From contig CANGGG010000014.1 of NCBI GenBank assembly GCA_947453415.1, positions 1 through 46,468 on the forward strand: 46,468 nucleotides of DNA. Reading direction: 5' to 3'. The DNA comes from Bacteroidota bacterium (lineage in GTDB: Bacteria; Bacteroidota; Bacteroidia; UKL13-3). Position 1 is the first letter of the stretch; each line of letters starts with the position of its first letter. The notes under the pieces were generated by a model. The model had not been told where the DNA came from. It saw only the letters and a list, made by a program, of their open reading frames with translations, and did no database searches. Below are positions 14,144-31,291 of the stretch, piece after piece. The position numbers were made by a program, and so were the translations under genes.

Positions 14144-16234
14144 TTAAAAACTTATTTGAAATTGTATGATTAAATCGCTTTGTGTGTCCCCATTTATTTG
14201 CTCTAATCCGCTACCAATTGAATTTATATTGTTATATTGGGTATATGAAAATCGCGCAAAAAATTTTATATTTTTATTAATTTTATAATTAGCCATCAAG
14301 TAAAATCGTGTACCACTATTTTGAAACATTGGCACACTATAAGTATAAGGCACATTGTCTTCAAAAGCATAAATGCGGGCATTGAATTCATCAACGTCAA
14401 ATAATGCCAAACGAGTATTAATGGTAAATTTGTTTTTATAAAACTTAAATTTTAAATCTTGGTAAATGAGCGTTCCATAAGTATTGGAAGTATTTCTAGT
14501 GCTATATTCTGATTGTTCAAAACGGCTTTCAGTCTCTATAAATAAACTGATTTTATATTTTAAATGGAACCTAAATTGTTGGCGAATTTGTTCGGCTAAA
14601 ACAGGATTTAAAGCAATAATATTACTGCTTTCATTTTTCTGATTATTTTCAAATTTATATCGAATATAAATATTTATAACTTTACTAGGATTATATTGAA
14701 CTTCGCTCAATAAATCGAATCCTTTGCTTGGTGCCTCTATTTGAAAACGCAACCAAGCCGATTTATAAAAATCAATATAACTATTAAAGGTAAATGCTTT
14801 TACTGGCTTGTAACTAATACCACAATAAAAACCAGTTTCATTTTTACCATCACTATTTTCCGCAAAAGGATTGTTAAATGTAGTTTGATAATTTGGTTCA
14901 AAATGTCGATATAGTAAACATAAATCGAGTTTACTGTCAAGTGTTAGCAGTAAAGAATTTGTAGTTGCAAATCCACCATTTTCACTTTTCGAAAATTCCC
15001 CACTAAAAAATGCATTTCCTAATGAAAGTTTATAATCTAATCCTGCATTCATTAATTGATTACCACTAAAATTATACAATTGATATAATTGATTGCCAGG
15101 CAAAAATGGTAAGTTATAATTGGTTTTAATTCCGGTAAACCCAATCTGTAAAAAATTAAAATCTTTTTGAACATGAACTCCCAAAATGCTTTGTTTTACA
15201 TTGTCTTTGTCTAATATTTCATTGTCCGTTCTGTTAAATCCTGTATAATTAAATCCAGTAAAACCGTCATACGAATTGATATTATTGGTATCGGCATTTT
15301 GAAAATTAGTATTGATGTTTTTATAAGATATAAATGAAACAAATTGCCAACTTTTATATTTGTAATCAATGGCAGCACCACGCATAAACTCAAATTCATT
15401 TACACTTCTATAAGGCCTGATATTTTGGTAGTATCTATTAATGTTTAATACATATGCAGATTTACGAGCAGAAAGGCCACTTCCAAATGTTAAACCTTGT
15501 CCAAAATTTGCTTGGTAATCACCAATAATTATGGAACTAAAATGTCCAATATTTTTAAAATGAACATGGGCTGAATTAAAGTCAAATCCGCTGCTTTGAG
15601 CACCACTTAAAAACTGTTCACCAGCGTCTTTTTCTCCTGTAAAACCAATATCAATTCGTTTTCCAATTTTTTGTTTTGCGCGTAACACATATCTGTACGG
15701 TGAACCCAAATAATACTGCTTATTGAGTGGTTTTAATTCGCTTGTTTTATATCCCAATTTTTGTTGAAAATCGTTTTCGTGTTGGAGTACAATTTCGGTT
15801 TTCCCCACCTGTGTAAGTTCAATTAATTTAAGCTGCTTATTTGTTTCATTTACAGTGGTAAAATGTTTTAAATAAAATATGGTTTCATCACTTAAATTAT
15901 CAATTGCTTGAAGTTCATAAATACTTTCAAAATCACCATATTTTTTTGGGTGATTTAAAATTGAATTTATCTCACTTTGCTTTAAAAACAATAACTGTTG
16001 TAATTCATTTTCCGAGCATTTGTTCAAGTTTATTTTTGTATCAAAATAATAGGCTAATTGAGCTTGTAAATCGGTGTAGTCTAATTGAGCTTCTTGATTT
16101 TCAATTAGCTTTTCAATGATGCTTGAAATGACATCATTTTTTTGTTGTAACTTTTGTGCAATCAAGATTTTACTTGAATAAATGAAAGCTAAAATGAGCA
16201 AATATTTAAATATATATTTTAATTTATTTACCAT
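14144..16234 (-). CDS. helix-hairpin-helix outer-membrane beta-barrel protein
   Basis: A 696-residue envelope protein. Residues 1-26 are a signal peptide. Residues of about 68-120 form a ComEA-like helix-hairpin-helix region (INLNKCSENELQQL, then YELQAIDNL). The remainder, from about 150, is beta-rich with many Tyr, Phe and Asn and ends in SDLIIQFQISF, with a C-terminal Phe as in outer-membrane barrels. This combination recurs in Bacteroidota and is annotated only as helix-hairpin-helix domain-containing protein; DNA uptake has been suggested by the ComEA part but is not shown. Its ATG overlaps the stop of the upstream gene by 11 nt (ATGGTAAATAA), implying translational coupling. Confidence 0.85.
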   Translation of the reverse strand: MVNKLKYIFKYLLILAFIYSSKILIAQKLQQKNDVISSIIEKLIENQEAQLDYTDLQAQLAYYFDTKINLNKCSENELQQLLFLKQSEINSILNHPKKYGDFESIYELQAIDNLSDETIFYLKHFTTVNETNKQLKLIELTQVGKTEIVLQHENDFQQKLGYKTSELKPLNKQYYLGSPYRYVLRAKQKIGKRIDIGFTGEKDAGEQFLSGAQSSGFDFNSAHVHFKNIGHFSSIIIGDYQANFGQGLTFGSGLSARKSAYVLNINRYYQNIRPYRSVNEFEFMRGAAIDYKYKSWQFVSFISYKNINTNFQNADTNNINSYDGFTGFNYTGFNRTDNEILDKDNVKQSILGVHVQKDFNFLQIGFTGIKTNYNLPFLPGNQLYQLYNFSGNQLMNAGLDYKLSLGNAFFSGEFSKSENGGFATTNSLLLTLDSKLDLCLLYRHFEPNYQTTFNNPFAENSDGKNETGFYCGISYKPVKAFTFNSYIDFYKSAWLRFQIEAPSKGFDLLSEVQYNPSKVINIYIRYKFENNQKNESSNIIALNPVLAEQIRQQFRFHLKYKISLFIETESRFEQSEYSTRNTSNTYGTLIYQDLKFKFYKNKFTINTRLALFDVDEFNARIYAFEDNVPYTYSVPMFQNSGTRFYLMANYKINKNIKFFARFSYTQYNNINSIGSGLEQINGDTQSDLIIQFQISF

Positions 16235-17033
16235 GAAAAACCATTCCTAAGTGTGGCGTTAAACCTAAGTTTTGATTAAAACTACTTGCAAATAATAAAT
16301 CAAATTGTTTTAGTTTAGTACTGAATCCAAAAGTGATATAATTTGGATTGTTGGCATAACCCAAACTTAACTCAAAATTAGGCTGCAAAGCGTAATTTAT
16401 TCCACTTCTAAGTATTAATTTTTGCGCTAAAGTTTTATCCGCATCAGCCGTTAAATATACATTTTTATTTATTAAATATTTAACTCCAATTCTTCCAAAA
16501 GTTATTACATTTCCATGTGAATTTATATTGTATTTGCTTTGAGTAGGGTTAAATATTAAAAGTCCAAATTGAAGATTTTTGTTTGCCTTAAAAAAAGCAC
16601 TTAAACTTCCTGCAAAAGCACTTGTATTTTCTTGCTCCGCTATATTTATGGCAATATAATTTAAAGTAATTCCTAAACTAAAACTGTTGTTTAGTTTTTT
16701 GGCAATACCAATGCTCATGTTTTGCTGGTTAAATTTTTCGTAACCAAAATGATTGATATTTGTACCAATTTGCAACCATTTTTTTGAAAAAATTAAACAT
16801 GTATTAATAGCGTTAAGTTGTTTTAACCCAAACCTTGTTTGATTGTATATTCCAAATTGAATTGATTTTATTTCTGTACTTGAAGCCATGTTATTAGCAC
16901 ATGAAAAAATATTGCTTTCAGCTGTAGAACAACCACCTAGACTCCATGATTTAGTACCAATTGGATCAAATATTGGCTGCGCAAATGCAATGGGAATTAC
17001 ACCTATTAAAAAAAATAAGCAAAACATTTTCAT
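16224..17033 (-). CDS. PorV-like or FadL-like outer-membrane protein, uncharacterised
   Basis: A 269-residue protein with a signal peptide (cleavage after IAFA, residue 18) and a beta-rich body. Repeated strand patterns (FGIYNQTRFGLKQL, WLQIGTNINHFGY, SLGITLNYIAI, HLGMVFHGK) resemble the barrel of PorV and related proteins; N-terminal SWSLGGCSTA is like the start of PorV-type proteins. I cannot name the family firmly. It overlaps the HhH barrel gene by 11 nt, so the two are made together and may act together in the outer membrane. An inverted repeat (17050-17078) lies 17 nt upstream of the ATG. Confidence 0.72.
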   Translation of the reverse strand: MKMFCLFFLIGVIPIAFAQPIFDPIGTKSWSLGGCSTAESNIFSCANNMASSTEIKSIQFGIYNQTRFGLKQLNAINTCLIFSKKWLQIGTNINHFGYEKFNQQNMSIGIAKKLNNSFSLGITLNYIAINIAEQENTSAFAGSLSAFFKANKNLQFGLLIFNPTQSKYNINSHGNVITFGRIGVKYLINKNVYLTADADKTLAQKLILRSGINYALQPNFELSLGYANNPNYITFGFSTKLKQFDLLFASSFNQNLGLTPHLGMVFHGK

Positions 17034-17117: not shown

Positions 17118-19883
17118 TTATCTTATTAATGTAATTGTTCCGTGAAGTTTTACAGTAGATTCATTTTGTTTTTTAAAACTTCCTAAATAAAAATATACCC
17201 CTTCACTAACGGGTTCCCCGTTTGTAGTTTTTCCATCCCATTTAAAATCTTTGTCACTGCTTGTAAAAATTTCTTGCCCCCAACGGTTATAAATTATAAT
17301 TTCAGCCTCCCCGCATTTCGACAATCCTTCTAATTTAAAATAATCATTGATTCCATCGTTATTTGGAGTAAATACGTTGATAGTTTTTACTTTATTTAAA
17401 CTGTCAGCATAATGAATAGTAGTTTTTGCCGTATCTGCACAATTAGTTCCACTATTTATTATTAAAACTATTTCTTGATTATTTATTTCATCAATTAGTA
17501 ATGTTGGATTTTTTAAATTACTGGTTTTCCCATTGGGTAAAAGCCATAAATAATTTAATGCATTTTCTGTTGGTGTATTAAAAGTTACTGTATTTGAACA
17601 GGTATCAAAATTGTAAAAAATGTTTGCATCTTTGAATTTAAACGACATTTTAAAAGCTGCATTGCTACACCTTGGACTTACATTGGTTTTAAAAACAGCA
17701 TCAGAACTTATTGGAAAATCACTGATTGATGTTTGTCCACTAAAATCAGGGCAACTTGCACATACTGATTGATATATATAACCTTTTTTATCAAACCTAC
17801 TTGTTCCACCATCAACGTGGTCGCCAGTAATATTCCCACCAAAAAAAGTTGCATATAATAATTTTTCAGCATTTTGGCTCATCACCATTAAGTAAAAATC
17901 ACGGCCATCGGTAGTTTTTTGGTATGCATCGGTAGTTACAGTTAAACCATTTGTATTTCCTACATTATTTATTCCACCCCAACCGCTCATATATAATCGT
18001 CCGCAGTCATCTAATAAAAAAGCATTAATACTAATATCAAAACTCACATTACCTCTACCAAAAGTACTAATAAAAGCTATTGTATCAAATGCTTTAGTTA
18101 TTTTACTGATAAATTGTTTTCCGTTTTTTACAGAATATACATTTCCAATTGGTTGAATATTTCCCATTGAATTTCCTACCACATATATATTTTCATCGTT
18201 GTCTAATTCCAAACTAAAAATTTGATCGCTTGAACTTGTTCCAAAATATTTTAACTTTAAAATAGTACTTCCATCGTTTTTTATTTTAGCAAAAAACCCA
18301 TCACTTTTACCACCAAAATAGGAGTTTGTTGCATTAATAATTCCCATATCTTTATTGGTGCTTCCTGCAATAAAAATATCTTGATTGCTATTTAAATCTA
18401 CGCTATAAATTACATCATCGCTTAAATTTGGAATGGCCGAACTAAAAATTAATGAATTGCAATTTGGACTTAATTTAAAAACTACACCTTTTTGTAATGA
18501 ATTGGCATTAGCCGCACCAAAAGAACCCGTTGTAATAGGAAAATTATACGATTTACTACAACTTCCAACTATAATATTATTATCTTTATCAATGATTACA
18601 TCACCTTTAAATTCATCGGCATAAAAAATATTTAGGTCAGCATTTAAATTCAAACCATCATCCAAACTTCCTCCTAAGAAAGTGGAGCCCAAAAGTGCAG
18701 TTCCATCAGCATTGAATTTGGTTACAAAAAAATCGTAATTCCCATTGTGACTGGTGTCGTAACCGTTTGTATTTATTGGAAAATCAACTGATTTGGTAGT
18801 TCCCATTACTACTAAATTGTCGTTATTGTCAACCACTAAGCTATGAGGATTTTCATTTTGCTTTCCTCCCAAATAAGTGGCATAAACTAACTGTTTTCCA
18901 TCGCTACTGTATTTGCTAATGGTAATGTCACAGGGTAAATAAACTGGTGCTTCTACAATACCACCTTTATATATTAGTTGAAAAGCTCCAGGAGTTACAG
19001 GATAAGTTCCACCAAACTCATTGGTAGTTATGCCACCTGCAAATAAATTTCCTTTACTATCATAAGTAGCAGTATATCCAAAATTATCTTCTGTTGAACC
19101 GCTATAGGTACTAAAAACCAAATCTGGATCAATCACTAAATTGTAATTTGGGTTGTAATGTTCGGCTTCAAAACTGATACAATTGTTTTTTATAACATAT
19201 TTTACATTTACCAAAAATCGTTTTCCTTCTATAATTTGATAAGCAAATGGTTTTTGTTCCTTTATAATTCCTTGTGAATGTGAAATAAATAATTCGTCAT
19301 AGTTTAAATAAACACTATCAGCTCCAGTTATTTGTAACTGAATATCAGCCAAATTAGCATTAGGTTTTAAAATCCAATCGTATTTTAAAACATTGCTTCT
19401 GGAAGCATTTATTTGTAAATCTATTTGCTTATAAATGTTTGGATAAATGATATTTTGGTAAGTATGAACATTGATTTTCCATTTACTTTTATCGTTTCCT
19501 AAAAAGTAGTTTTTGTAGGAGTTTTCTGCTACGCCATTTGAAATTGGAATACAGTTTTTGCCTATATTTTTAAATAAAACAGCTAAATAATTCCCGTTAA
19601 TTATAATTTCTTTTTTTTCTATTTTATCCAAGTGATCATTCGCATCTGCCACGTTTTTTTGATTTAGAAAATAGTAAGAAATACTTTCATCTTTCAATAA
19701 AATATGGAAGGCTGAACTGCTGTATTTGAATTTGATATCTTTGTTCCATTGACCTTTATTTTCTGTAAAATTTATAATGTTTCTTATTGCCTCCGGCAAA
19801 ATATTCACTTGTGCCAAAATTTTATTTTGACAAGCAAATTGCGCAGCAATTAAAAAAATAATATATTGGAGTTTTTTGAACAA
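17118..19883 (-). CDS. secreted SBBP-repeat protein with T9SS type B sorting domain
   Basis: A 921-residue protein when read from a TTG at 19883. That start gives FKKLQYIIFLIAAQFACQNKILAQ, an ordinary signal peptide; an ATG at 19949 would add 22 hydrophobic residues before it and is less likely. The mature part begins with an ENKGQW domain (DUF7948-type), then SBBP/beta-propeller-like repeats (FSTYSGSTEDNFG, YATYLGGKQNEN, LGSTFLGGSLDDG) and a PKD-like stretch. The last 85 residues are the gliding-motility-associated type B domain (NVFTPNNDGINDYF, IYNRWGQEIF, WDGKTTNGEPVSEGVYFY). It is divergent from the sigma factor gene, 147 nt away. A surface or secreted role via the T9SS is expected; ligand unknown. 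Confidence 0.88.
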   Translation of the reverse strand: MFKKLQYIIFLIAAQFACQNKILAQVNILPEAIRNIINFTENKGQWNKDIKFKYSSSAFHILLKDESISYYFLNQKNVADANDHLDKIEKKEIIINGNYLAVLFKNIGKNCIPISNGVAENSYKNYFLGNDKSKWKINVHTYQNIIYPNIYKQIDLQINASRSNVLKYDWILKPNANLADIQLQITGADSVYLNYDELFISHSQGIIKEQKPFAYQIIEGKRFLVNVKYVIKNNCISFEAEHYNPNYNLVIDPDLVFSTYSGSTEDNFGYTATYDSKGNLFAGGITTNEFGGTYPVTPGAFQLIYKGGIVEAPVYLPCDITISKYSSDGKQLVYATYLGGKQNENPHSLVVDNNDNLVVMGTTKSVDFPINTNGYDTSHNGNYDFFVTKFNADGTALLGSTFLGGSLDDGLNLNADLNIFYADEFKGDVIIDKDNNIIVGSCSKSYNFPITTGSFGAANANSLQKGVVFKLSPNCNSLIFSSAIPNLSDDVIYSVDLNSNQDIFIAGSTNKDMGIINATNSYFGGKSDGFFAKIKNDGSTILKLKYFGTSSSDQIFSLELDNDENIYVVGNSMGNIQPIGNVYSVKNGKQFISKITKAFDTIAFISTFGRGNVSFDISINAFLLDDCGRLYMSGWGGINNVGNTNGLTVTTDAYQKTTDGRDFYLMVMSQNAEKLLYATFFGGNITGDHVDGGTSRFDKKGYIYQSVCASCPDFSGQTSISDFPISSDAVFKTNVSPRCSNAAFKMSFKFKDANIFYNFDTCSNTVTFNTPTENALNYLWLLPNGKTSNLKNPTLLIDEINNQEIVLIINSGTNCADTAKTTIHYADSLNKVKTINVFTPNNDGINDYFKLEGLSKCGEAEIIIYNRWGQEIFTSSDKDFKWDGKTTNGEPVSEGVYFYLGSFKKQNESTVKLHGTITLIR

Positions 19884-19969
19884 ATAAATATAATTTTTAA
19901 GTAAGCAAAGTAAATGAATTTTAAAATAAATAGCTTGCAATAAAAGCATTTAGAAAATTTTAAGTTTTT

Positions 19970-20002
19970 TTTGCAAATACTTGCAACTAAAAAATACTTT
20001 AA
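19970..20002 (+). promoter_or_regulatory. possible promoter of the ECF sigma operon
   Basis: TTTG (19970-19973), 21-nt spacer, TACTTTAA (six of eight matches to TAnnTTTG), 28 nt before the GTG at 20031. The spacer contains the near direct repeat TTGCAAATAC-TTGCAACTA, which could be part of a special promoter. Confidence 0.35.
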
Positions 20003-20030
20003 TTAATCATCCACAATAGCAATAGAAAAA

Positions 20031-20567
20031 GTGAGCCAAAATATAAGTCAAGAATTGATAGATAAATGCATACAAGGGCAAGCCAAGGCTCAAAAACAAT
20101 TGTATGAATTTACCGTAAGACAAATGTATGGAATATGCTTAAGATATTGCAAAAATCCTGAAGATGCAAAAGACATCATGCAAGAAGGTTATATTAGGGT
20201 TTTTAGTAAAATGAAGCAATTTGAAGGTAAAGGAGTTTTAGAAGCATGGATGAGAAGAATATTTGTTAACTGTGCTTTAGAAAATATAAGAGTCAATAAA
20301 TTTAATACTGAAACGAGTGATATTGCAGAAGAATATAATTTAGGCTTTGAAAATTTAACCATTGACAAAATGAGTCAAAAGGAAATTATGGAAATCTTTC
20401 AAAAGCTTGCAAATGGATATAGAACTGTTTTGAATTTGTTTGCAATTGAGGGCTATTCACATGCTGAAATAGCCGAAATGTTAGGAATAAGTGAAGGAAC
20501 TTCAAAAAGCCAACTAGCTAGGGCAAGAGGTGCTTTTTTAAAAGAATATAATAAGTTAAAAAATTGA
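20031..20567 (+). CDS. RNA polymerase ECF sigma factor
   Basis: A 178-residue sigma-70 family ECF protein beginning with GTG. Region 2 is at about residues 10-80 (YEFTVRQMYGICLRYCKNPEDAKDIMQEGY, the core-binding and -10 recognition part), with the W-R-x-FVN segment at 88-95. Region 4 is at about 115-170 (YRTVLNLFAIEGYSHAEIAEMLGISEGTSKSQL), a helix-turn-helix. No extra C-terminal domain. Its stop overlaps the start of the next gene by 4 nt (TTGA), the usual arrangement of an ECF sigma and its anti-sigma. It probably directs transcription of the giant surface protein downstream, its own operon, or both. Confidence 0.95.
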   Translation: MSQNISQELIDKCIQGQAKAQKQLYEFTVRQMYGICLRYCKNPEDAKDIMQEGYIRVFSKMKQFEGKGVLEAWMRRIFVNCALENIRVNKFNTETSDIAEEYNLGFENLTIDKMSQKEIMEIFQKLANGYRTVLNLFAIEGYSHAEIAEMLGISEGTSKSQLARARGAFLKEYNKLKN

Positions 20568-21457
20568 ATAAATTAGATAATATATTAAAAAAACAAATGG
20601 AAACTTTTGCTCCTGATGCGCCAAATATTTGGGCAGGAATAGAGCAAGGTGTTCAAGCGAATGCTGCTGCGCAAACTGCTACAATTACCAAAACTATTGG
20701 CAGTAAATTAGTCAATACAATTGCTAAAATTGCTGCTTTTGTAGTGATTCCCGCAAGTGTAGTGGTTTATTTTATAAGCAATGAAAAAAACAATATTGTA
20801 GAAAGTCCAAAAGTGGAAAACAGTATTTTATCCTCAAACTCAAATACCGAAAAAGTAAAAACAGTTGAAACGCCAAAAATAGCTTCAGTTAATACTGAAA
20901 ATAAAGCTATAAAAATTAATGAAAATAAAACAACGATTTCAAATAATAATAATAGCACTTCAAATACCTCAGAAAAAACTGTTAATGAATTTGTTAGTAT
21001 CAATAAAATAATCACTTTAGAACAAATTAATAAGGCAAAAAATGAAAATGTAATGATTGTTTCGAAAGAATCTAATAAAGACATTTCAAATGAAGATATT
21101 GCTGAAAATAAAGAAGTGGAAATGATAGAAGAAAATGAAAGTAAAGAAGATTTTTCAAATTCAGGGAATGAAGCGGGTATCAGAATTTTTCCGAATGTGT
21201 TTACTCCAAATAATGACGGAATTGATGATAAATATGTAATAGATTTAGAAGGTGAAAAATTCTATAATTTGAAAATTTACAATTATAACAATGAATTAGT
21301 TTTTGAAAGTAATGATAAAAATAACAATTGGGATGGAATAAACTATAAAACTGGACAAGCCTGTAACAGTGGAACTTACTATGGAATTTTTCAGTTTAAA
21401 TTTTACAATGAAGAAAAAAATTCCACACGAATGACAAAAATAAAATTGATTCGATAA
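20564..21457 (+). CDS. anti-sigma-like membrane protein with C-terminal T9SS type B domain
   Basis: A 297-residue protein starting with TTG inside the sigma factor stop (TTGA overlap). Residues 1-48 form a cytoplasmic segment with LKKQMETFAPDAPNIWAGIE, the pattern of Bacteroidota anti-sigma N-termini. Residues of about 54-71 are a single membrane helix. Residues 72-205 are a low-complexity Asn/Glu/Lys/Ser linker. Residues of about 206-297 match the gliding-motility-associated type B sorting domain (FPNVFTPNNDGIDDKY, KIYNYNNELVF, NWDGINYKTGQACNSGTYYG). There is no cleavable signal peptide, so the sorting-type domain should stay tethered in the periplasm. Proposed role: holding the sigma factor and sensing the envelope or T9SS. 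The domain order is read directly; the role is inference. Confidence 0.85.
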   Translation: MNKLDNILKKQMETFAPDAPNIWAGIEQGVQANAAAQTATITKTIGSKLVNTIAKIAAFVVIPASVVVYFISNEKNNIVESPKVENSILSSNSNTEKVKTVETPKIASVNTENKAIKINENKTTISNNNNSTSNTSEKTVNEFVSINKIITLEQINKAKNENVMIVSKESNKDISNEDIAENKEVEMIEENESKEDFSNSGNEAGIRIFPNVFTPNNDGIDDKYVIDLEGEKFYNLKIYNYNNELVFESNDKNNNWDGINYKTGQACNSGTYYGIFQFKFYNEEKNSTRMTKIKLIR

Positions 21458-21467
21458 ATCATAATAC

Positions 21468-21497
21468 TTGTAATTTAATTTAAAAATATTATGTTAG
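21468..21497 (+). promoter_or_regulatory. possible promoter of the 2006-residue surface protein gene
   Basis: TTG (21468-21470), 19-nt spacer, TATGTTAG (21490-21497; seven of eight matches to TAnnTTTG), 34 nt before the ATG. It may be read by the housekeeping sigma or by the ECF factor encoded just upstream. Confidence 0.4.
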
Positions 21498-21531
21498 CAA
21501 ACTGTTTAAAATATAAAATAATAATAATAAA

Positions 21532-24500
21532 ATGAAATATATGTACTTTAAATTATCCATCCGAAAGCTAAAACACAGTGCTGTTTTGGTTTTTCTATTG
21601 TTTACATCTATCTTGGTTAAAGCCCAGGCAGATTTTACAATATCCCCCACAATAGCTTGTGCCGGTGTAGATAGAACACGTGTTAACATTACAACACCTG
21701 GTATTGCCGCAGCTGATTTAATTTCATTTACTGTACGTTGGGGAATACCTAACGACACTGCTGTAAATGCAAGAATTGCTGGGCAACCACCAATTCCTTT
21801 GTTTTCAAAACAATATTTTAATGGTGGAACTTATAATATAACAGTTGTAGTTAAAAGAAATGGCGGACCAGATATAGTTATTACTAAATCTATTAAGATT
21901 TGGCAACGCCCTACTACTTCATTTACGCTTGCTAGTTCTGATAACCAATGTTTCAAAAACAATCAATATTGTTTTAACAATACTTCACATCAAGGAACAG
22001 CTCCATTAGTTAAGTACGAATGGACTTTTGGAGATGGTAATTATCGTTTAATAACTGATACCAATAACAGAAATATTTGTCATCAGTATGCCTTAAATAA
22101 TCCTGCTTATCAAGTTGGATTAAAAGTAACAGATTCTGTGGGTTGTACTACTGATCCTGTTACGGATTTATTAAGTGCTAAAGGTGTAAAATTAGCACCA
22201 GATATTAATCCTAAATTTGAAATTACAGGTAAAGCGCAGTGTGATACTACTTTTTATATTTATAAAAATACTACTGCCATGAGTTTTGCAAATGTATATT
22301 CATTTACTTTTGATTATGGTGATGGTACAACATATGTATCTGGTCCACCTCATACTGTAACTGAAGATTTTAACAGATGGTCAAAACCATATACACATGG
22401 ATATACAACTAATAACGTATTTCGTCCTTCACTAATTGTTAAAGATAAATCTTCAGGATGTATCGATACCTTTTATTATGAAAGTACAGGATTACAATTA
22501 CCTGAAAATATTATTTTCCAAATTGAGTTATTAACCAAACGTAGCATTCCTAACGATTCAATAGCCGATTCAGTTTGTTTAATGACTCCAGGAGCAGCAA
22601 CGCTAACTTTGTATAACAAATATGATTTACAGGGTCCCGGTGGAACTCCATTAGATATACAATGGCATTTTCATGATCCAAATGCAAATCCTCCAGGATC
22701 AGATGTAAATCCATTTAGAAATGTGTTTCAACCTACTTATGACTATAAAGGAATGGGTCAGTTTTTCCCAACTTTAACAGTTAAATGTCCGGGTGCTACT
22801 GCCAAATCAAGAACATATACTTTTTATTCAAAAATTGATACCCTTCCAAAAGATTTAAACAGGTATCAATATCAAGATTATTGGGCAGCTCCAGATCCAA
22901 AATATCCTCAATGGACAAATCCAAATGGACCACAATTAAATCCAATTTTATATACAAAAAACGGTAGATTATTAACACCAAATACTGCTACAAATCCTCA
23001 GTATTACAATTATAATGGTAAAATATCTTCTTATGCATACGATACAACATACAGTTCAGTTGATCCAACTGTTATATTAAGTATTCATGCTCGTCATATT
23101 GGCTGGACTGATTCAATGAGTTCAAGTTGGGATTTCTTTTACATAAATGATGATGCATGTATTAATAAATGGATTGATACAGGTGTTACTACTTTTAGAA
23201 ATCCTTTTACCAGTGCTTTAAATACCGTTCCATTTTACAGGGATTTTTGTAATCCAATATCTCGTGTAATAAGAACTGCAGATACATTATTTAGGGATAA
23301 ATTAATTGGTTTAGGAGTACAAATTTTAGGTCCTTTTGTAAGAATTGAAAATCCATTTCCAGCTGGTGGTCCACCTCCTCCAGATGATGTGGTTTTACAA
23401 TGGCAAAAATTACAATGCGGCCCTTCTTATCCAGTTTATTTTGTAAATAATTCGTTAACTTATCAATCAAATAGAATTTGGATTCGTTGGGATTTTGCGG
23501 AAGATGCATTTGCTCCCGCTTGTACTTCATATTCTATTCCAAATCCTTCTCAAGCAAATGGTGGTTTAGAACCTTATACAAGTGCTGGTGATTTAAAAAA
23601 TAGAACTATAGGTGCATTCATTGCCAATGGAAAAGCTTATTTGGGAAGATTAGATATTTGTAATTATTCTCACGATACGATGCCTACCCATACGTACACA
23701 AATTGGGATGTTGCATTTGATTGGTATAGATATGGACACGATTTCCCTCCTTATGATTCAACAAAATGGACAAAAGGATATACAGTTTGGCCCACATCAC
23801 AAGCGCCACCAGCTGGTTTTACTTGGGTACAACCTAGAGATACAATTGGTTCACAAGGATGGAACAAACCAATGACAGCAACTGGTCCTACTCCAACTCG
23901 TATAGATACAATGGTGAAAATTTGGCCTGCCGATATTCCTGCTAATAACGTTATTACTTTAAATAGGGGAATTCCAGATCCGATTTCAAGTTCAAGAGGA
24001 AATTGGATGGATGTAATTCCTGCTGGAACAAGAATTGACACAGGTTTATTAGTCATTAATTTATCACAAAAAGCAAATGATGGAAGAACTAGAACTTATA
24101 GAGGTTCTGACATTATACCTGGAATTTCTCCTCCTAAAACCTTATATAGATATGCGTTTGACCGCCAGGTTATACAAGATATTACAGTTACTTTAAGAAT
24201 GAAAGATTCATTGAATAATATTTCTGGTGATCCTGGATTTAGAAAAATAAAGTTGAAATTTGATACCATTCAAATTTATGATCCTATTACTAATGGTACT
24301 AAAGATTCTATTGTCAGAGATTCATTATTCTTAGATGATTGGGATTGTAATGGTTCAAGTAGTGTAACATTAAGTTTTACTCGTCCCGATGCATTTGGTT
24401 TAAGTCAAGATGGTAAAATTTGTCCTAACTTTAAATCAGGTTCTTCAGGTGGTGATCCTCAATTAATATTTAATAGAAATGGTTATTTAGATTCTGCACG

Positions 24501-27500
24501 AACTAATCAAGGTGCGGGTATTTTACCTTCTAGCGATAGAACCATGTTATTAATTAATTACGATTCATTACTAGATAGAAATGACAATACACCTTGTAAA
24601 TTAGATAATTTTGTGGATTGGTCTGGCACAAATCCTGATCCAACAAATCCTGGTGGTTTAACTATGCCTATGATGTATAAAGCAGTAAATTATCCTCCTC
24701 AACCACCAAGACAATGGAGCAGTTCTGCTGGAACAAAAGCTTGGTTACATTATTGGCCAAGTGGACCAACTGGTGGTGGGGTTAATAACATGCCAGTAGA
24801 TCCTAAAGGTTGGGTAACATTAGGTTTAATAGTTGGAACAGGATGTTTTTCTCCTACCAATTGTAATTTACCATCTTGTTACAGTGATACAGTTTGGTAC
24901 CATCGTTTCTTTAGATTTATAGAATTAAATGCAAACTTTACCATTGAAAATTTTGCTTATGAATTCCCTAATCCTCCACCTTTTTGTTACTTAAGAGGAA
25001 GAGGAGATGATGTGGTATTCCATTATTACGATTCTATACAAGATAATGTAATTGCCGATGTTTGGGATTGGGGTGATGGAACTGCAACTGTAGATTCATT
25101 TTACTACCAACCAGAAGAAGATATTCCATTTAATAGAATTAGATATATATTTAATTCAAATGACCTTCCATGGACACTATCAAGTACTCAATATTTCCCA
25201 ATTGGTTTAAGAATTTCTACTGATACAGTGATTAATAAAATTTATCGTTGTGATGATTTAAATAAAGTTTTTCCACCACAAAGAATAGATACGATTATCA
25301 CGCACCGTGATTCAAGTTTAATGTTTACTCCTATTCACCATAAATACTTAAAAACTACTTTTGAACAAATGGTAGTGGGTGGAAATGGTCAATTAGAAAG
25401 AAGAGGTGACATTACCCCTGTACTTCATAACATGGTAACAAATAGTTATTTTAAATGTGAAAACAGAATTACTAAGTACATTGTTATTGGTGTAATTGAT
25501 ACATTTGATATTAAAAATGCAGCTGGCGAATGGGATACAGTATTTTGCCAAGGTGAAACAGTTTATTTCTATGATTCCATCAGGTATTGGTATCCTTCAT
25601 CTAATTGTTCAAGACCTTTAAATATTCCAGCTAATGAAAATGATTTATTGAATAATGACCATGGAGATATGCATAATTGGGCTTATACAAAAGACAATTA
25701 TCCAATTGATTCAATTCAAACAAATGTTACTTACGATTTAACTGATTATTTAATTTTCCCTGGAACTACTGCTGTTTGTCCTATTACTCATAATAATTTA
25801 AGAGTAGTTGGTGTGGGAGGTGATGGATTTTCTCCAGTTGTTCGCTGCTTTAAAAACAGAAATTATTTCCATGAACGAATTTATTGGGATTTTGAATCTG
25901 ATGGTGTAATTGATGCCAATGGACCATTTAGAGTTACTAACCCTGTTACTCATAAATACCCTAAATATGGTAGATATAAAGTATCAATGATTTCAATTGA
26001 TAGTATTGGCCGTTGGGATACTTGTTTCCAATATGTAAACGTTGTAAAACCAATTGCAGCTATTCAAGCTAAAGATCTTTACATTTGTGGAGATAACTTT
26101 ACTTTCAAAGATTCTACTACAATCCTAGATGATTATTGGGCTACTACAGGCATAGATTCTTTAGATAGAATTGCTTCTTGGAAATGGTGGTTTGGCGATA
26201 GACCTTATTATCCTTTAGCTCCACAATCTATTTTGAAAAATCCTGTTTATGATTATAGAAAAAATGGTAAATATACTTTGCGTTTGGCTATAAGTACTGA
26301 ACAAGGTTGTACTGATACTGCTTTTAAAAATATCTTTATCAGTGGTCCACGTCCTCATTTAGTAATTCTTGACGATACGCTTGGCTGTGCACCTCACAGG
26401 GTTAGAATAGTAAGTATTCCTGAACGTGAACCTTGGGCAAATGCTAAAGATACGCCAACTAAATCTACTTTTATACTTTCTGGAAGACCAGATGGTGCCT
26501 CTGATTTTTTTACATACTCTGTAATTGACACAGCTACTTTCTATTATGATCAGCCAGGAACATATTATATTTCAGCAATTGCTTATGATAATGTAAATGG
26601 TAGTGGTGGAGTTTGTAAACCAGTAATCACACCTGATACCGTTGATGGTTTTGAAAAACCAATTAGAATAACTGTAAATGTGCCTTACAAAGTTGATTTC
26701 TTGTCTTCTAAAGATACAGTTTGCGTTGGTGAGGTATTTACTATATCTAATCTATCAGATAGAGATACCATTAACAGATATAGAATGGACGTATTTGATG
26801 GTAAATACAATGCAAGGTTAGATTCAATATTGAAAACTAACTACATAGCTGATACCTCTTGGCAATATAGATTTAACAATGTTGGTCAATATAAATTAGT
26901 ATTAAACTCTACTAGATTTAATAAAGGATTTTCGCCTTGTTCTTATCAAGATACCATTGCTATGGTAGCAACAAAAGCAAAAGCAGACTTTACCGGTTCT
27001 TCACCAAGTGAAGCTACTTATAGAGTTATTAATACTTCGGATACATCACTATCTGATAAGTATACTTGGAAAATATATAATTTAGATGGTACGTTATTAA
27101 ATGGATTTCCAATTGATTTTGATGAATCAAGTCCTTTAAATAATAAACTATTTGAATTTTATGATCTTGATTCAACTAAATCGTTTGTTGTTTGTATCAT
27201 AGCCGATGTTGCTGGAACACATTCTTGTCCGGACTCAGTTTGTAAAACAATAGAAATTATTGTTCCAAAAAGTAAATTAAAAATACCTAATGTATTTACA
27301 CCTAATGGAGATGGAGTAAATGATGTATTTAAAATTGATATTTCTGGATTCAAAAAATACAGTTTAGTTATTTGGAACAGATGGGGTAATAACGTTTTTG
27401 AAAGTGATAATCCTGATAAAATGTGGAATGGTAAAACTAATAATGATGGAGGTGAAAACCCTGCAGGAACTTATTACTACCTATTCAATTATCAATTAAG

Positions 27501-27552
27501 AGGAGAACAAGAACAAACAGTTCGTGGTTCAATCACACTGATTAGAGAATAG
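21532..27552 (+). CDS. giant PKD-domain surface protein with T9SS type B sorting domain
   Basis: A 2006-residue exported protein. The signal peptide ends at about residue 33 (SILVKAQ). PKD-type sandwiches are marked by WTFGDGNY (about 164), FDYGDGTTY (about 260), WDWGDGTA (about 1178), WDFESDGVID (about 1452) and KWWFGDRPYYP (about 1553). Between them are large inserts rich in Pro, Asn, Asp and Cys, including GWVTLGLI (about 1092) and CYSDTVWYH, a module also found in the two giants at 35885-44451. The C-terminal 85 residues are the type B domain (NVFTPNGDGVNDVF, IWNRWGNNVF, WNGKTNNDGGENPAGTYYY). Adhesion or a gliding-related surface role is plausible. It follows the sigma/anti-sigma pair by 74 nt and ends at a strong terminator. 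Confidence 0.9.
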   Translation: MKYMYFKLSIRKLKHSAVLVFLLFTSILVKAQADFTISPTIACAGVDRTRVNITTPGIAAADLISFTVRWGIPNDTAVNARIAGQPPIPLFSKQYFNGGTYNITVVVKRNGGPDIVITKSIKIWQRPTTSFTLASSDNQCFKNNQYCFNNTSHQGTAPLVKYEWTFGDGNYRLITDTNNRNICHQYALNNPAYQVGLKVTDSVGCTTDPVTDLLSAKGVKLAPDINPKFEITGKAQCDTTFYIYKNTTAMSFANVYSFTFDYGDGTTYVSGPPHTVTEDFNRWSKPYTHGYTTNNVFRPSLIVKDKSSGCIDTFYYESTGLQLPENIIFQIELLTKRSIPNDSIADSVCLMTPGAATLTLYNKYDLQGPGGTPLDIQWHFHDPNANPPGSDVNPFRNVFQPTYDYKGMGQFFPTLTVKCPGATAKSRTYTFYSKIDTLPKDLNRYQYQDYWAAPDPKYPQWTNPNGPQLNPILYTKNGRLLTPNTATNPQYYNYNGKISSYAYDTTYSSVDPTVILSIHARHIGWTDSMSSSWDFFYINDDACINKWIDTGVTTFRNPFTSALNTVPFYRDFCNPISRVIRTADTLFRDKLIGLGVQILGPFVRIENPFPAGGPPPPDDVVLQWQKLQCGPSYPVYFVNNSLTYQSNRIWIRWDFAEDAFAPACTSYSIPNPSQANGGLEPYTSAGDLKNRTIGAFIANGKAYLGRLDICNYSHDTMPTHTYTNWDVAFDWYRYGHDFPPYDSTKWTKGYTVWPTSQAPPAGFTWVQPRDTIGSQGWNKPMTATGPTPTRIDTMVKIWPADIPANNVITLNRGIPDPISSSRGNWMDVIPAGTRIDTGLLVINLSQKANDGRTRTYRGSDIIPGISPPKTLYRYAFDRQVIQDITVTLRMKDSLNNISGDPGFRKIKLKFDTIQIYDPITNGTKDSIVRDSLFLDDWDCNGSSSVTLSFTRPDAFGLSQDGKICPNFKSGSSGGDPQLIFNRNGYLDSARTNQGAGILPSSDRTMLLINYDSLLDRNDNTPCKLDNFVDWSGTNPDPTNPGGLTMPMMYKAVNYPPQPPRQWSSSAGTKAWLHYWPSGPTGGGVNNMPVDPKGWVTLGLIVGTGCFSPTNCNLPSCYSDTVWYHRFFRFIELNANFTIENFAYEFPNPPPFCYLRGRGDDVVFHYYDSIQDNVIADVWDWGDGTATVDSFYYQPEEDIPFNRIRYIFNSNDLPWTLSSTQYFPIGLRISTDTVINKIYRCDDLNKVFPPQRIDTIITHRDSSLMFTPIHHKYLKTTFEQMVVGGNGQLERRGDITPVLHNMVTNSYFKCENRITKYIVIGVIDTFDIKNAAGEWDTVFCQGETVYFYDSIRYWYPSSNCSRPLNIPANENDLLNNDHGDMHNWAYTKDNYPIDSIQTNVTYDLTDYLIFPGTTAVCPITHNNLRVVGVGGDGFSPVVRCFKNRNYFHERIYWDFESDGVIDANGPFRVTNPVTHKYPKYGRYKVSMISIDSIGRWDTCFQYVNVVKPIAAIQAKDLYICGDNFTFKDSTTILDDYWATTGIDSLDRIASWKWWFGDRPYYPLAPQSILKNPVYDYRKNGKYTLRLAISTEQGCTDTAFKNIFISGPRPHLVILDDTLGCAPHRVRIVSIPEREPWANAKDTPTKSTFILSGRPDGASDFFTYSVIDTATFYYDQPGTYYISAIAYDNVNGSGGVCKPVITPDTVDGFEKPIRITVNVPYKVDFLSSKDTVCVGEVFTISNLSDRDTINRYRMDVFDGKYNARLDSILKTNYIADTSWQYRFNNVGQYKLVLNSTRFNKGFSPCSYQDTIAMVATKAKADFTGSSPSEATYRVINTSDTSLSDKYTWKIYNLDGTLLNGFPIDFDESSPLNNKLFEFYDLDSTKSFVVCIIADVAGTHSCPDSVCKTIEIIVPKSKLKIPNVFTPNGDGVNDVFKIDISGFKKYSLVIWNRWGNNVFESDNPDKMWNGKTNNDGGENPAGTYYYLFNYQLRGEQEQTVRGSITLIRE

Positions 27553-28575: not shown

Positions 28576-30225
28576 ATGAATAACAATTCATTAATAAATG
28601 AAGAAACACTGCGAGCCATTTTTAATAATGCGGTAGATGGTATGATAGTTATTAATAATAGAGGTATTATTCAATCAGTTAATAATTCTATCACTAACAT
28701 GTTTCAGTTTTCAAATGAGGAAATGATAGGAAATAATATTAGCATGTTAATGCCAGAACCAGATCATTCAAAACACGATGGTTATTTAAAAAAACACCAT
28801 GAAACTGGTGAAAAAAAGATAATTGGAATAGGCAGAGAAGTAGTTGGCAAAAGAAAAGACAACACCACTTTTCCTTTTTTTTTAAGTATTTGTGATGTAG
28901 AAATGCAAAATGGTGAAAAGCTTTTTGCAGGTGTTATACATGATATAAGTGTTTTGAAAAAAGCACAAAATGACCTTGAAGATTATAGCAAAATATTAGA
29001 GAAAAATAATTCAGATTTAGAAAAACATGTAAGCGAGAGAACTGCTCAATTAAGTTCAGCAAATATTGAATTAGAGAGTTCAAATGTATTATTAGCAAAA
29101 CAAATTGATGAAAACAAAAAAGCAAATATTGAACTATTAAAATCACAGCAAATGCTTTCTATTATTGCACAAAATTACCCAAATGGAATTATTAGTGTTT
29201 ATAATAAAAGCCATATTTGTGAGTTTATTGAGGGCTTAGAATTGAAAAAACTTGGATTAAGTAAAGAAGATTTTTTAGGTAAAACAATAGCCGAAACTTT
29301 TGATAAAGAAATTAGTGATATTCATACTTATCATTTCAATAAAACAGTTAATGGTGAAAGTACCATGTATGAATTAGTTATAAATAATAATAATTATTTG
29401 TTTTATACCACTCCAATTAAAGATGATTATTATTTAATTGACAGAATAGTAGTAGTTTGTTTAAATATTAGTTTGGTAAAAGAAGCGGAAGAAAAAACCA
29501 GACATGCATTAGATAAAGCCAATGAATTAAGTGAATTGAAATCTAGATTTATTTCTATGGCATCGCATGAATTTAGAACACCTTTAAGTACTATACTTTC
29601 ATCGCTTAATTTAATGGTAAAATATAAGGAACTTAATGAACACGTAAAATTTGCTTCACATGGTGTAAAAATTAAAACATCAATTATTAATTTAACTGAA
29701 ATTTTAGAATATTTTTTATCAGTAGAAAAACTAGATTCAGGACATTTTAAAATAGAACCTACCACTTTTGATTTGGTAGATTTTATCAATACAAATATTG
29801 ATGAGGTGGTAAACGATTTAAAAGACAAACAAAGAATAGTATTACAGCTTTCTCTTAAAAAAATTATGATTAATCATGATAAAAAGATAATCAGAACTAT
29901 TTGGCAAAACTTAATTACTAACGCAATAAAGTATTCTCCCGAAAACGGTGAAATTATTGTTCATTTACAAGCAAATGATGATAGATTTATTTTAAGTGTA
30001 ATTGACAATGGAATTGGCATTCCCGAAAATGAACAAAAACACTTATTTGAAAGATTTTACAGAGCAAATAATGCTGCCAATATTCAAGGAACAGGTATTG
30101 GTTTAAATATTATAAAAAAATACATTGAACTTTTAGGAGGTAATATTACATTTACCAGCAAAATAAACGAAGGAACAACTTTTACAATTAACCTCCCATT
30201 GGTTTTAAATCCAATATCAAATTAA
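28576..30225 (+). CDS. FixL-like haem-PAS sensor histidine kinase
   Basis: A 549-residue soluble kinase with no membrane helix. The first PAS domain (about residues 12-128) has the FixL haem-pocket pattern: MPEPDHSKHDGYL, where His67 aligns with the proximal haem His200 of Bradyrhizobium FixL, and IIGIGREVVGKRKD, where Ile82 and Arg87 align with the distal Ile215 and Arg220. A coiled coil (130-190) and a second, weaker PAS-like domain (about 193-300) follow. The kinase core has the H-box FISMASHEFRTP (phospho-acceptor His331), N-box NLITNAIKYSP, G1 VIDNGIGIP and G2 GTGIGL. It is followed 7 nt later by its presumed partner regulator. Oxygen or NO sensing is inferred from the haem-pocket residues. 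Confidence 0.92.
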   Translation: MNNNSLINEETLRAIFNNAVDGMIVINNRGIIQSVNNSITNMFQFSNEEMIGNNISMLMPEPDHSKHDGYLKKHHETGEKKIIGIGREVVGKRKDNTTFPFFLSICDVEMQNGEKLFAGVIHDISVLKKAQNDLEDYSKILEKNNSDLEKHVSERTAQLSSANIELESSNVLLAKQIDENKKANIELLKSQQMLSIIAQNYPNGIISVYNKSHICEFIEGLELKKLGLSKEDFLGKTIAETFDKEISDIHTYHFNKTVNGESTMYELVINNNNYLFYTTPIKDDYYLIDRIVVVCLNISLVKEAEEKTRHALDKANELSELKSRFISMASHEFRTPLSTILSSLNLMVKYKELNEHVKFASHGVKIKTSIINLTEILEYFLSVEKLDSGHFKIEPTTFDLVDFINTNIDEVVNDLKDKQRIVLQLSLKKIMINHDKKIIRTIWQNLITNAIKYSPENGEIIVHLQANDDRFILSVIDNGIGIPENEQKHLFERFYRANNAANIQGTGIGLNIIKKYIELLGGNITFTSKINEGTTFTINLPLVLNPISN

Positions 30226-30232
30226 CACAAAA

Positions 30233-31291
30233 ATGAAGAAAATATTAGTAATTGAAGATAACAAAGATGTACGTGAAAACATTGCTGAAATACTTGAACT
30301 TTCAGGTTATAAAGTAGAACAAGCTATAAATGGAAAAGAGGGTGCTACTAAAGCTAAATATTTACTTCCAGATTTAATTGTTTGCGATATTATGATGCCG
30401 GAATTAGATGGTTATGGTGTTTTAAATTTGTTATCTTCAGAAAGTATTACTTCGTCTATTCCATTTATATTTTTAACTGCAAAGGCGGAGTTAAATGACA
30501 TGCGAAAAGGCATGAACATGGGCGCTGACGATTATATTACCAAACCTTTTGAAGATGCTGAATTATTAAAAGCAATAGAAGTTAGATTAGGTAAGGTTAG
30601 TGCTATTAAATCTGATTTCCATAAATCAATTGAAGGCATTGAATCATTCATTGAAACTGCAATGACTTTGGAAGATTTAGACAAAATATCGAAAGACAGA
30701 AAAAGAATTTTGTTTAAAAAGAAACAACCTATTTATAGCATTGACAATGTGCCAAGAGGAATATATTTTATAGAAAAAGGCTCTGTAAAAACTTATAGAA
30801 CTAGCTTAAACGACAAGGATTATATTTCTAAAATTTATAATGCAGGGGAATTTTTTGGATATATTAATTTATTAGAAAATGCAAATTACTCCGACAATGC
30901 TGAAGCATTAGAGGAAACTGTTACTTATTTTATTCCTAAAGACGATTTTTTTGAACTGATTTCTAAAAACAGATTAGTAGCAAACTCATTTATAAAAATG
31001 CTTGCTGGAAGTGTAGTGGAACACGAAAATAGAATGATGAAATTGGCTTATAATTCTGTTAGAAAACGCATTGCAGAAAGTTTAATAATGCTTGATAAAA
31101 CTTATAATACCAAACAAGAAGAGCATTTTGTTATTAATGTAAACAGACAAGATTTGGCAAGTTTAGTAGGAACCGCGGCAGAAACTGTCATTAGAACTTT
31201 ATCGGACTTTAAAGAAGAAAAATTAATTGAAGTAAAAGGCAGCGCAATTACTATTTTAGAAAAAAATAAGCTTTTGAACATGAGAAATTAG
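30233..31291 (+). CDS. response regulator: receiver domain fused to CRP/FNR-type transcription factor
   Basis: A 352-residue protein. Residues 1-120 are a receiver domain: Asp9 (acidic pocket), phospho-acceptor Asp52 in VCDIMMP, Thr82 and Lys104 (ITKPF). Residues of about 157-275 are a cyclic-nucleotide-binding-type beta-roll (RGIYFIEKGSVKTYR, YNAGEFFGYINLL). Residues of about 285-345 are the CRP/FNR winged helix, with the recognition region NRQDLASLVGTAAETVIRTLSDF at about 302-326. There are no FNR-type N-terminal cysteines, so no iron-sulfur sensor. It lies 7 nt after the FixL-like kinase, so phosphorylation by that kinase is the simplest model. In rhizobia the same pathway uses two proteins, FixJ and FixK. 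Confidence 0.93.
   Translation: MKKILVIEDNKDVRENIAEILELSGYKVEQAINGKEGATKAKYLLPDLIVCDIMMPELDGYGVLNLLSSESITSSIPFIFLTAKAELNDMRKGMNMGADDYITKPFEDAELLKAIEVRLGKVSAIKSDFHKSIEGIESFIETAMTLEDLDKISKDRKRILFKKKQPIYSIDNVPRGIYFIEKGSVKTYRTSLNDKDYISKIYNAGEFFGYINLLENANYSDNAEALEETVTYFIPKDDFFELISKNRLVANSFIKMLAGSVVEHENRMMKLAYNSVRKRIAESLIMLDKTYNTKQEEHFVINVNRQDLASLVGTAAETVIRTLSDFKEEKLIEVKGSAITILEKNKLLNMRN

Follow-up and report, generated by a model that had tools for sequence, protein, structure and literature searches.

Anti-sigma factors and type B tails

Some anti-sigma factors, among them FecR and FlgM, are tied to an event at the outer membrane or to export, and it is the export of FlgM that frees sigma-28. To our knowledge, it is not known how Bacteroidota outside Porphyromonas gingivalis match the production of giant surface proteins to the machine that secretes them. 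Here we describe a locus in a stretch of 46,468 nucleotides (nt) from a Bacteroidota bacterium (GenBank assembly GCA_947453415.1, contig CANGGG010000014.1; this whole stretch is called the window below), in which the gene of an extracytoplasmic function (ECF) sigma factor is followed by ORF2, an open reading frame (ORF) for a putative anti-sigma factor that ends in a domain of the kind carried by cargo of the type IX secretion system (T9SS), and then by the gene of a giant exported protein whose tail matches the same domain model (Table 1).

The plan closest to that of ORF2 is found in the Dma (dual membrane-spanning anti-sigma) family of Bacteroides thetaiotaomicron, described as having an N-terminal sigma-binding domain, a membrane helix, a long disordered tether and a beta-barrel, and as repressing the adjacent ECF21 sigma factor (PMC13088901). 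ORF2 resembles Dma in adjoining a sigma gene, in its one membrane helix (by hydropathy) and in its long disordered tether, but it ends in a CHU_C domain instead of a barrel, so that we consider it Dma-like and do not file it as Dma; in the family of the window it is additionally linked to giant CHU_C surface proteins. An earlier note on this DNA, made from the sequence alone, knew of no characterised system of this design, a statement overturned by the Dma proteins, whose plan is alike except that a beta-barrel stands where ORF2 has its tail. What appears to be new is the presence of CHU_C in place of the barrel, the plan itself being already published for Dma. Among the titles and abstract openings listed by capped searches of open-licence literature, none describes a CHU_C anti-sigma factor, which is weak evidence of absence.

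Two other systems are relevant. T9SS type B substrates (PMC12618676, PMC9143113, PMC10202324, PMC10994853) carry a CHU_C/TIGR04131 domain at their very C-terminus, and a cognate PorP/SprF gene alongside is common, although not universal. ORF2 is like them in the type and the position of this domain, ahead of which some CHU_C anti-sigma proteins have PKD domains, and differs in being membrane-tethered, in having no evident signal peptide, in the loss of the RWG motif of cargo tails and in having no PorP/SprF gene alongside. In P. gingivalis, PorA, a protein with a T9SS C-terminal domain (CTD), is described as acting upstream of PorXY-SigP, and its CTD as binding PorV (PMC7712824); a CTD protein can therefore feed into a sigma pathway. 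Both cases would link a T9SS-type CTD to an ECF sigma factor, but PorA is a surface protein that works through a two-component system, whereas the tail of ORF2 is fused to the putative anti-sigma factor itself.

A type B domain on a putative anti-sigma factor

The Pfam domain CHU_C covers residues 209-283 of ORF2 with 49.7 bits (cut-off 27), compared with 83.7 bits for the giant protein and 76.3 bits for the protein encoded by the divergent neighbour. The NCBIfam model TIGR04131 gave 32.5 bits on ORF2 alone, slightly below its cut-off of 35, and 34.8 bits for the same stretch in a whole-genome search, where it was counted above the cut-off together with its neighbours; the 2.9-Mb genome of the window has 18 matches to this model. 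CHU_C was found (E ≤ 0.01) in all 26 members of an alignment of CHU_C anti-sigma proteins (A2), 10 of which are also matched by FlgD_ig. In a profile search of PDB sequences, the best match (E 1.5e-9) was close to the C-terminal end of the Aureispira grappling-hook protein. PKD domains were also matched in 6 of the 26 proteins, as in cargo proteins.

The AlphaFold model of ORF2, obtained with a 26-row alignment, has helices at residues 3-13 and 21-35 with low confidence, a predicted local distance difference test score (pLDDT) below 50 across residues 32-203 and, starting at about residue 211, a beta domain predicted with confidence (ten-residue blocks at pLDDT 88-96). The only hydrophobic segment begins at about residue 53 (Kyte-Doolittle 2.3 over 19 residues) and is preceded by about 50 residues with two helices, in which W23 is invariant across the 26 rows of A2; no signal peptide is evident there by eye and hydropathy. 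The segment that joins the membrane helix to the tail has a median of 145 residues (range 119-283) in 60 proteins. These data bear out much of what the earlier note had read from the letters, namely a sigma gene that overlaps a TTG-started gene by 4 nt, a membrane helix with a long linker, a type B domain at residues 206-297 and a third type B tail encoded by the divergent neighbour. The sigma factor itself scored below the cut-offs of the NCBIfam sigma equivalogs (e.g., sigma_PG0214, 86.3 of 130 bits).

Conservation of the gene pair

We searched 58 genomes separately with the sigma factor and with ORF2, of which 35, including that of the window, belong to the same family, and fetched 40 regions for locus inspection. 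A sigma match at E ≤ 1e-20, orthologue or paralogue, was present in 56 of the 58. A sigma gene with a directly downstream ORF that has a hydrophobic segment near its N-terminus and a C-terminal CHU_C domain was found in 34 of the 35 family genomes, a count of genomes with at least one such pair, which is not always located at the best sigma match (in G020 and G022 the partner of the best match is barrel-like). The exception, G012, has other partner types at three inspected loci out of its five sigma matches. Among four regions from outside the family, L077 contains the pair, L079 is cut inside ORF2, L078 has a partner of another type and L076 has no sigma factor above threshold. Considering that the pair is kept in nearly every family genome, and that a genome of 2.9 Mb has only 18 TIGR04131 matches, the arrangement of the two genes is not due to chance.

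A shared N-terminal module

Database genomes were also scanned with an alignment of 25 sigma factors, and the best 80 of at least 593 loci were used (wide loci), 78 of which have a directly downstream ORF by a distance rule. A CHU_C C-terminus was present in 25 of these 78 sigma-adjacent ORFs, including those of Fluviicola chungangensis, Crocinitomix catalasitica and Bacteroidetes bacterium UKL13-3, a fraction that is not a prevalence because only the best loci were used and the sigma factors of the query all came from loci with a CHU_C ORF2. The other 53 end differently: at E ≤ 0.01, OMP_b-brl_2 was found in 20 and OMP_b-brl in 13 (the two sets may overlap), and RsgI_N, an anti-sigma N-terminus, matched 2 weakly.

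A profile built on the N-terminal 60 residues of 58 CHU_C members was run on the 1548 ORFs of the wide loci. The 25 CHU_C ORFs match it by construction, but it also matched (E ≤ 1e-3) 46 of the 53 non-CHU_C sigma-adjacent ORFs and only 1 of 1450 background ORFs, and this single match (L145) is an ORF with a barrel-domain end, 283 nt after the sigma match of its locus, that the distance rule had missed. By this profile, the N-terminal module is common to CHU_C and other sigma-adjacent proteins, many of them barrel-ended. A sister protein (L120) is predicted to have helices at residues 5-17 and 25-36, a further helix at 44-66, disorder at 68-215 and then long strands, i.e., the same plan as the ORF2 model up to the differing C-terminal domain. 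The anti-sigma-like N-terminus proposed earlier thus belongs to a sigma-linked family, within a pair that is conserved, and neither of the outcomes that the earlier note had named as refuting it occurred. A sigma tree of 100 rows (the 80 wide loci, 19 picked from the 40 fetched regions, and the window) required 7 changes of C-terminal type, against a mean of 32 after shuffling; the starred branches force 2.

Two variants of this architecture were observed. In L080 (3-1571), L092 and L079, the N-terminal anti-sigma motif is repeated two or three times ahead of the membrane helix. In L167 (10523-12202), the sigma-adjacent membrane protein ends in a type A T9SS tail (Por_Secre_tail, 32.4 bits, cut-off 27) and also contains a PKD domain, and its N-terminus matches the anti-sigma profile weakly (E 0.26); this one case hints at other export tags being used likewise.

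The tail of ORF2 differs from cargo tails

Among the tails of the fetched regions, 29 of 31 from giants and 24 of 25 from divergent genes contain the motif N[RK][WF]G, but none of the 35 from ORF2 does. Over all loci, 71 of 77 cargo tails have RWG, compared with 0 of 60 ORF2 tails (57 of them different). In the ORF2 of the window this position corresponds to residues 240-243, between the predicted strands 231-239 and 245-249. Other landmarks of the domain are retained in ORF2 tails (P 98%, D 98%, ND 88 and 95%, W 100%, two G 100%, Y 95%), while the F of FTP falls from 99% in cargo to 75%. The giant protein therefore shares the CHU_C domain with ORF2, as the earlier note said, but not the "same tail," since that of ORF2 is a distinct form. 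In a tail tree calculated without the RWG columns we counted 7 changes, and a single clade of anti-sigma tails was not rejected (approximately unbiased test, p-AU 0.52, few columns); one loss of RWG may therefore account for all anti-sigma tails.

In Flavobacterium johnsoniae SprB, five conserved type B motifs have been described, each of them required for export (PMC12618676). The same paper gives ipTM values above 0.8 for true pairs of a CTD with its shuttle. Since ORF2 has lost RWG and its N-terminus has no evident signal peptide, its tail is probably not exportable, which fits the non-exportable copy that had been postulated. Were ORF2 itself exported, the T9SS would draw its tail across the outer membrane so that the tether spanned both membranes, and pulling or contact at the surface would release the sigma factor, much as export of FlgM frees sigma-28. 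The tether would be long enough to cross the periplasm, many type B landmarks are retained in the tail, and PorA provides a precedent of a surface CTD protein upstream of a sigma factor; however, the loss of RWG in 60 of 60 tails, the need for each of the five conserved motifs in the export of SprB, the two helices before the membrane segment with no evident signal peptide, and the lack of a PorP/SprF gene alongside make this improbable.

Even less plausible, to the point that we give it hardly any credence, is that ORF2 is an ordinary type B cargo with an odd start that lies beside a sigma gene by chance. Its C-terminal CHU_C domain is what such a cargo would have, but the pair is overlapping and conserved across the family, the N-terminus is common to sigma-adjacent proteins with other ends, and RWG is always absent.

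Linkage to cargo genes

The next gene in the 34 family loci is a complete CHU_C giant in 30 and an ORF cut at the contig end in 4, and a divergent CHU_C gene is found in 25 of them. Among the wide loci, a CHU_C cargo gene comes next at 8 of the 25 with a CHU_C ORF2 and at 0 of the 53 others (Fisher 4.6e-5, kinship ignored; the next gene is cut at the contig end in 2 loci of each set), and 4 of the 53 have such a cargo elsewhere in the locus. The linkage to a giant cargo is thus a property of the whole family of the window and is not universal beyond it, so that the giant cargo seen by the earlier note recurs throughout the family, and a CHU_C cargo follows at only a minority of the wide CHU_C loci. 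In L119, L128 and L164, the sigma and CHU_C anti-sigma genes are followed by two or three tandem CHU_C cargo genes.

These numbers bear on a different explanation of the tail, in which it would be an immunoglobulin (Ig)-like ligand-binding domain derived from surface proteins that senses either the linked giant or some ligand in the periplasm or cell wall, with no relation to T9SS traffic. The 17 of 25 wide CHU_C loci without a detected CHU_C cargo (in two of which the contig ends within a long next gene) are in line with it, as are the FlgD_ig matches, the generic Ig-like folds found by the fold search and the lack of a special co-variation with the tail of the giant (both described below). 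It would also follow from the loss of RWG and the weakening of G and T in the last strand that any contact with a shuttle through those residues is gone. On the other hand, the tail keeps P, D, N-D, W-x-G, G and Y at 88-100%, the domain of the window is above the CHU_C threshold, and a CHU_C cargo next to the pair was seen at CHU_C loci and at none of the others. We regard a ligand sensor of this kind as rather unlikely, yet worth keeping in mind.

A conserved motif upstream of the sigma gene

The strict motif GCAAC[CT]-N17-[AG]TC was found within the approximately 200-220 nt before the sigma gene in 27 of 34 family loci (a count that used the longest ORF start, which shifts the searched stretch in some loci) and in 23 of the 25 wide CHU_C loci. 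The means expected from first-order resampled sequences are 0.03 and 0.045 loci, respectively. Such conservation upstream of the sigma gene suggests an autoregulated ECF promoter.

Proposed mechanism

We propose, as the more probable reading of the locus, that ORF2 is a Dma-like trans-envelope anti-sigma factor that reads a partner at the outer membrane or in the T9SS. The two-helix module at its N-terminus would hold the sigma factor in the cytoplasm, the helix would cross the inner membrane, and a disordered tether of about 130 residues would cross the periplasm. The CHU_C domain would act as the sensor at the outer side, replacing the outer-membrane beta-barrel of Dma, and would most likely dock on a PorP/SprF-type shuttle, on the SprA translocon or on the linked surface protein. 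Contact with one of these is the natural guess, because type B domains bind them and because cargo is linked at part of the loci. A change in the contact of the domain with its partner would free the sigma factor. Acting at the GCAACY-N17-RTC promoter, the sigma factor would then raise expression of the operon that encodes it and, at loci where a giant CHU_C gene continues the row, of that gene as well. In favor of this reading are the conservation of the pair, the N-terminal module shared with barrel-ended sister proteins, the likeness in plan to Dma, the loss of RWG while other landmarks are kept, the upstream motif, the presence of SprA, and the CHU_C cargo that comes next only at CHU_C loci.

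A narrower version of this proposal, which we put forward only tentatively, sees the tail as an ancient side branch of the type B signal domain, made non-exportable by the loss of RWG, that serves as a tethered cargo mimic in T9SS-bearing Bacteroidota. It would report the state of the T9SS or of its shuttles directly to the ECF sigma factor and would thus match the supply of giant protein to export capacity. The earlier note had suggested that a tethered tail may sense whether the secretion machinery is free or blocked, or may bind cargo.

Several observations weigh against a Dma-like sensor of the T9SS. The likeness of the N-terminal module to that of Dma comes only from the described plan and from the sigma-linked family, and a search of the PDB with the whole ORF2 model gave generic Ig-like folds, none at E ≤ 0.001 (the T9SS proteins 8gl8_D and 6za2_B were among the weak matches). 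The tail is altered beyond RWG, being weaker at a late G (87% in cargo, 32% in ORF2 tails), at a T of the last strand (79% to less than 14%) and at one Y (71% to 35%), although local alignments that end early may account for part of the loss at these columns and at the F of FTP. No PorP/SprF gene was found on the contig of the window, the five TIGR03519 matches of the genome being located on three others (C1, C6 and C33). The upstream motif is neither universal nor specific: it was missed before 7 of 34 family sigma genes and was present before 13 of the 53 non-CHU_C ones (resampled mean 0.08). Across genomes its excess is modest, with 16 matches against 7 for the reversed pattern in the genome of the window, mostly inside open frames, and 32 against 9 in UKL13-3.

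The presence of SprA and the co-variation of the tails add to these points. SprA was found in all 58 genomes searched and in all 25 wide CHU_C genomes, but 22 of the 25 non-CHU_C genomes tried have it too (these were hand-picked, mostly with barrel-like ends, so that the comparison covers 50 of the 80 loci); it is nearly universal, says little, and was ruled out as a discriminator. A specific co-evolution of the ORF2 tail with the tail of the giant was likewise rejected. Their partial r given sigma distance was 0.37, compared with 0.47 for the ORF2 tail and the divergent tail, 0.47 for the ORF2 tail and the body of the giant, and 0.49 for the two cargo tails, i.e., no special coupling. Each of these correlations was reached in 0 of 2000 permutations, in a sample that went from 31 loci with the giant to 21 that had a divergent CHU_C gene and passed a start filter, and to 16 after thinning.

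Possible regulon

The genome-wide motif scans offer a weak lead to the regulon. Clear gene-proximal matches in the genome of the window are those before the sigma gene itself and before a barrel-like membrane protein of 208 amino acids (aa) (L196:802-1428, contig C72), whose Pfam hits are below the cut-off. The motif before the latter is kept in 8 of 8 orthologues of the genus (2 of the 10 genomes had no match), but there the entire intergenic stretch is conserved and the gene on the far side begins right at the motif. For UKL13-3, loci were obtained for 30 of the 32 matches and six passed the intergenic filter, which dropped the match of the sigma gene itself. Two of the six precede ORFs that match the CHU_C profile, one of 902 aa (L235:6841-9549) and one of 211 aa that may be a fragment. 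The small outer-membrane-like proteins behind the motif in the genome of the window and in UKL13-3 are not alike. At L215-L217 of UKL13-3, successive occurrences of the same match are 846 bases apart, a spacing that points to a long tandem repeat.

Layout of the locus and neighboring genes

The features of the locus are listed in Table 1. The upstream block of the giant gene resembles the housekeeping promoter consensus.

Table 1. Features of the sigma factor/ORF2 locus, with positions in the window
Feature	Position	Strand	Evidence
Divergent SBBP/DUF7948 protein, 943 aa, cargo-type CHU_C tail	17118..19949	-	Pfam
Putative ECF promoter of the sigma operon, TGCAACY-N17-RTC	19982..20008	+	Motif match in genome scan; alignment
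ECF sigma factor, 178 aa, GTG start	20031..20567	+	Pfam Sigma70_r2 48.1 bits and Sigma70_r4_2 58 bits, both above cut-off
ORF2, putative trans-envelope anti-sigma factor, 297 aa, TTG start	20564..21457	+	4-nt overlap with sigma gene
ORF2 putative N-terminal anti-sigma-type module, residues 1-35, two helices flanking conserved W23	20564..20668	+	Profile, alignment and low-confidence model
ORF2 predicted single membrane helix, about residues 53-73	20720..20782	+	Kyte-Doolittle 2.33 at residue 53
ORF2 predicted disordered tether, about residues 75-203	20786..21172	+	pLDDT <50
ORF2 C-terminal CHU_C (T9SS type B-like) domain, residues 206-297	21179..21454	+	Pfam PF13585 and model
ORF2 residues 240-243 (N-Y-N-N), position of the cargo motif N-R-W-G, lost in ORF2	21281..21292	+	Tail alignment
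Possible housekeeping-type promoter of the giant gene (TTG ... TATGTTAG)	21468..21497	+	Conserved within genus, alignment of 10 loci
Giant exported protein, 2006 aa, PKD domains, cargo-type CHU_C tail with NRWG	21532..27552	+	Pfam

Other genes of the window were also noted. Just past the divergent CHU_C gene, at 14144-17033, a PorV/PorQ-family-like protein (below the cut-off) overlaps a helix-hairpin-helix protein. At 28576-31291, the gene after that of a sensor histidine kinase encodes a fusion of a response regulator with a CRP-type DNA-binding protein. Further along, two PKD/CHU_C proteins of 1259 and 1271 aa are encoded on the same strand (35885-39664 and 40636-44451), and between them lies a gene for a small type A (Por_Secre_tail) protein on the opposite strand.

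Implications

In this conserved gene pair, the putative anti-sigma factor carries a cargo-like domain that is sharply marked in its sequence by the loss of RWG, and the pair has a predicted promoter. A modular Dma plan is suggested, in which the same cytoplasmic module and tether can end in either a barrel or a T9SS-type domain, and the family may therefore read more than one kind of state at the outer membrane.

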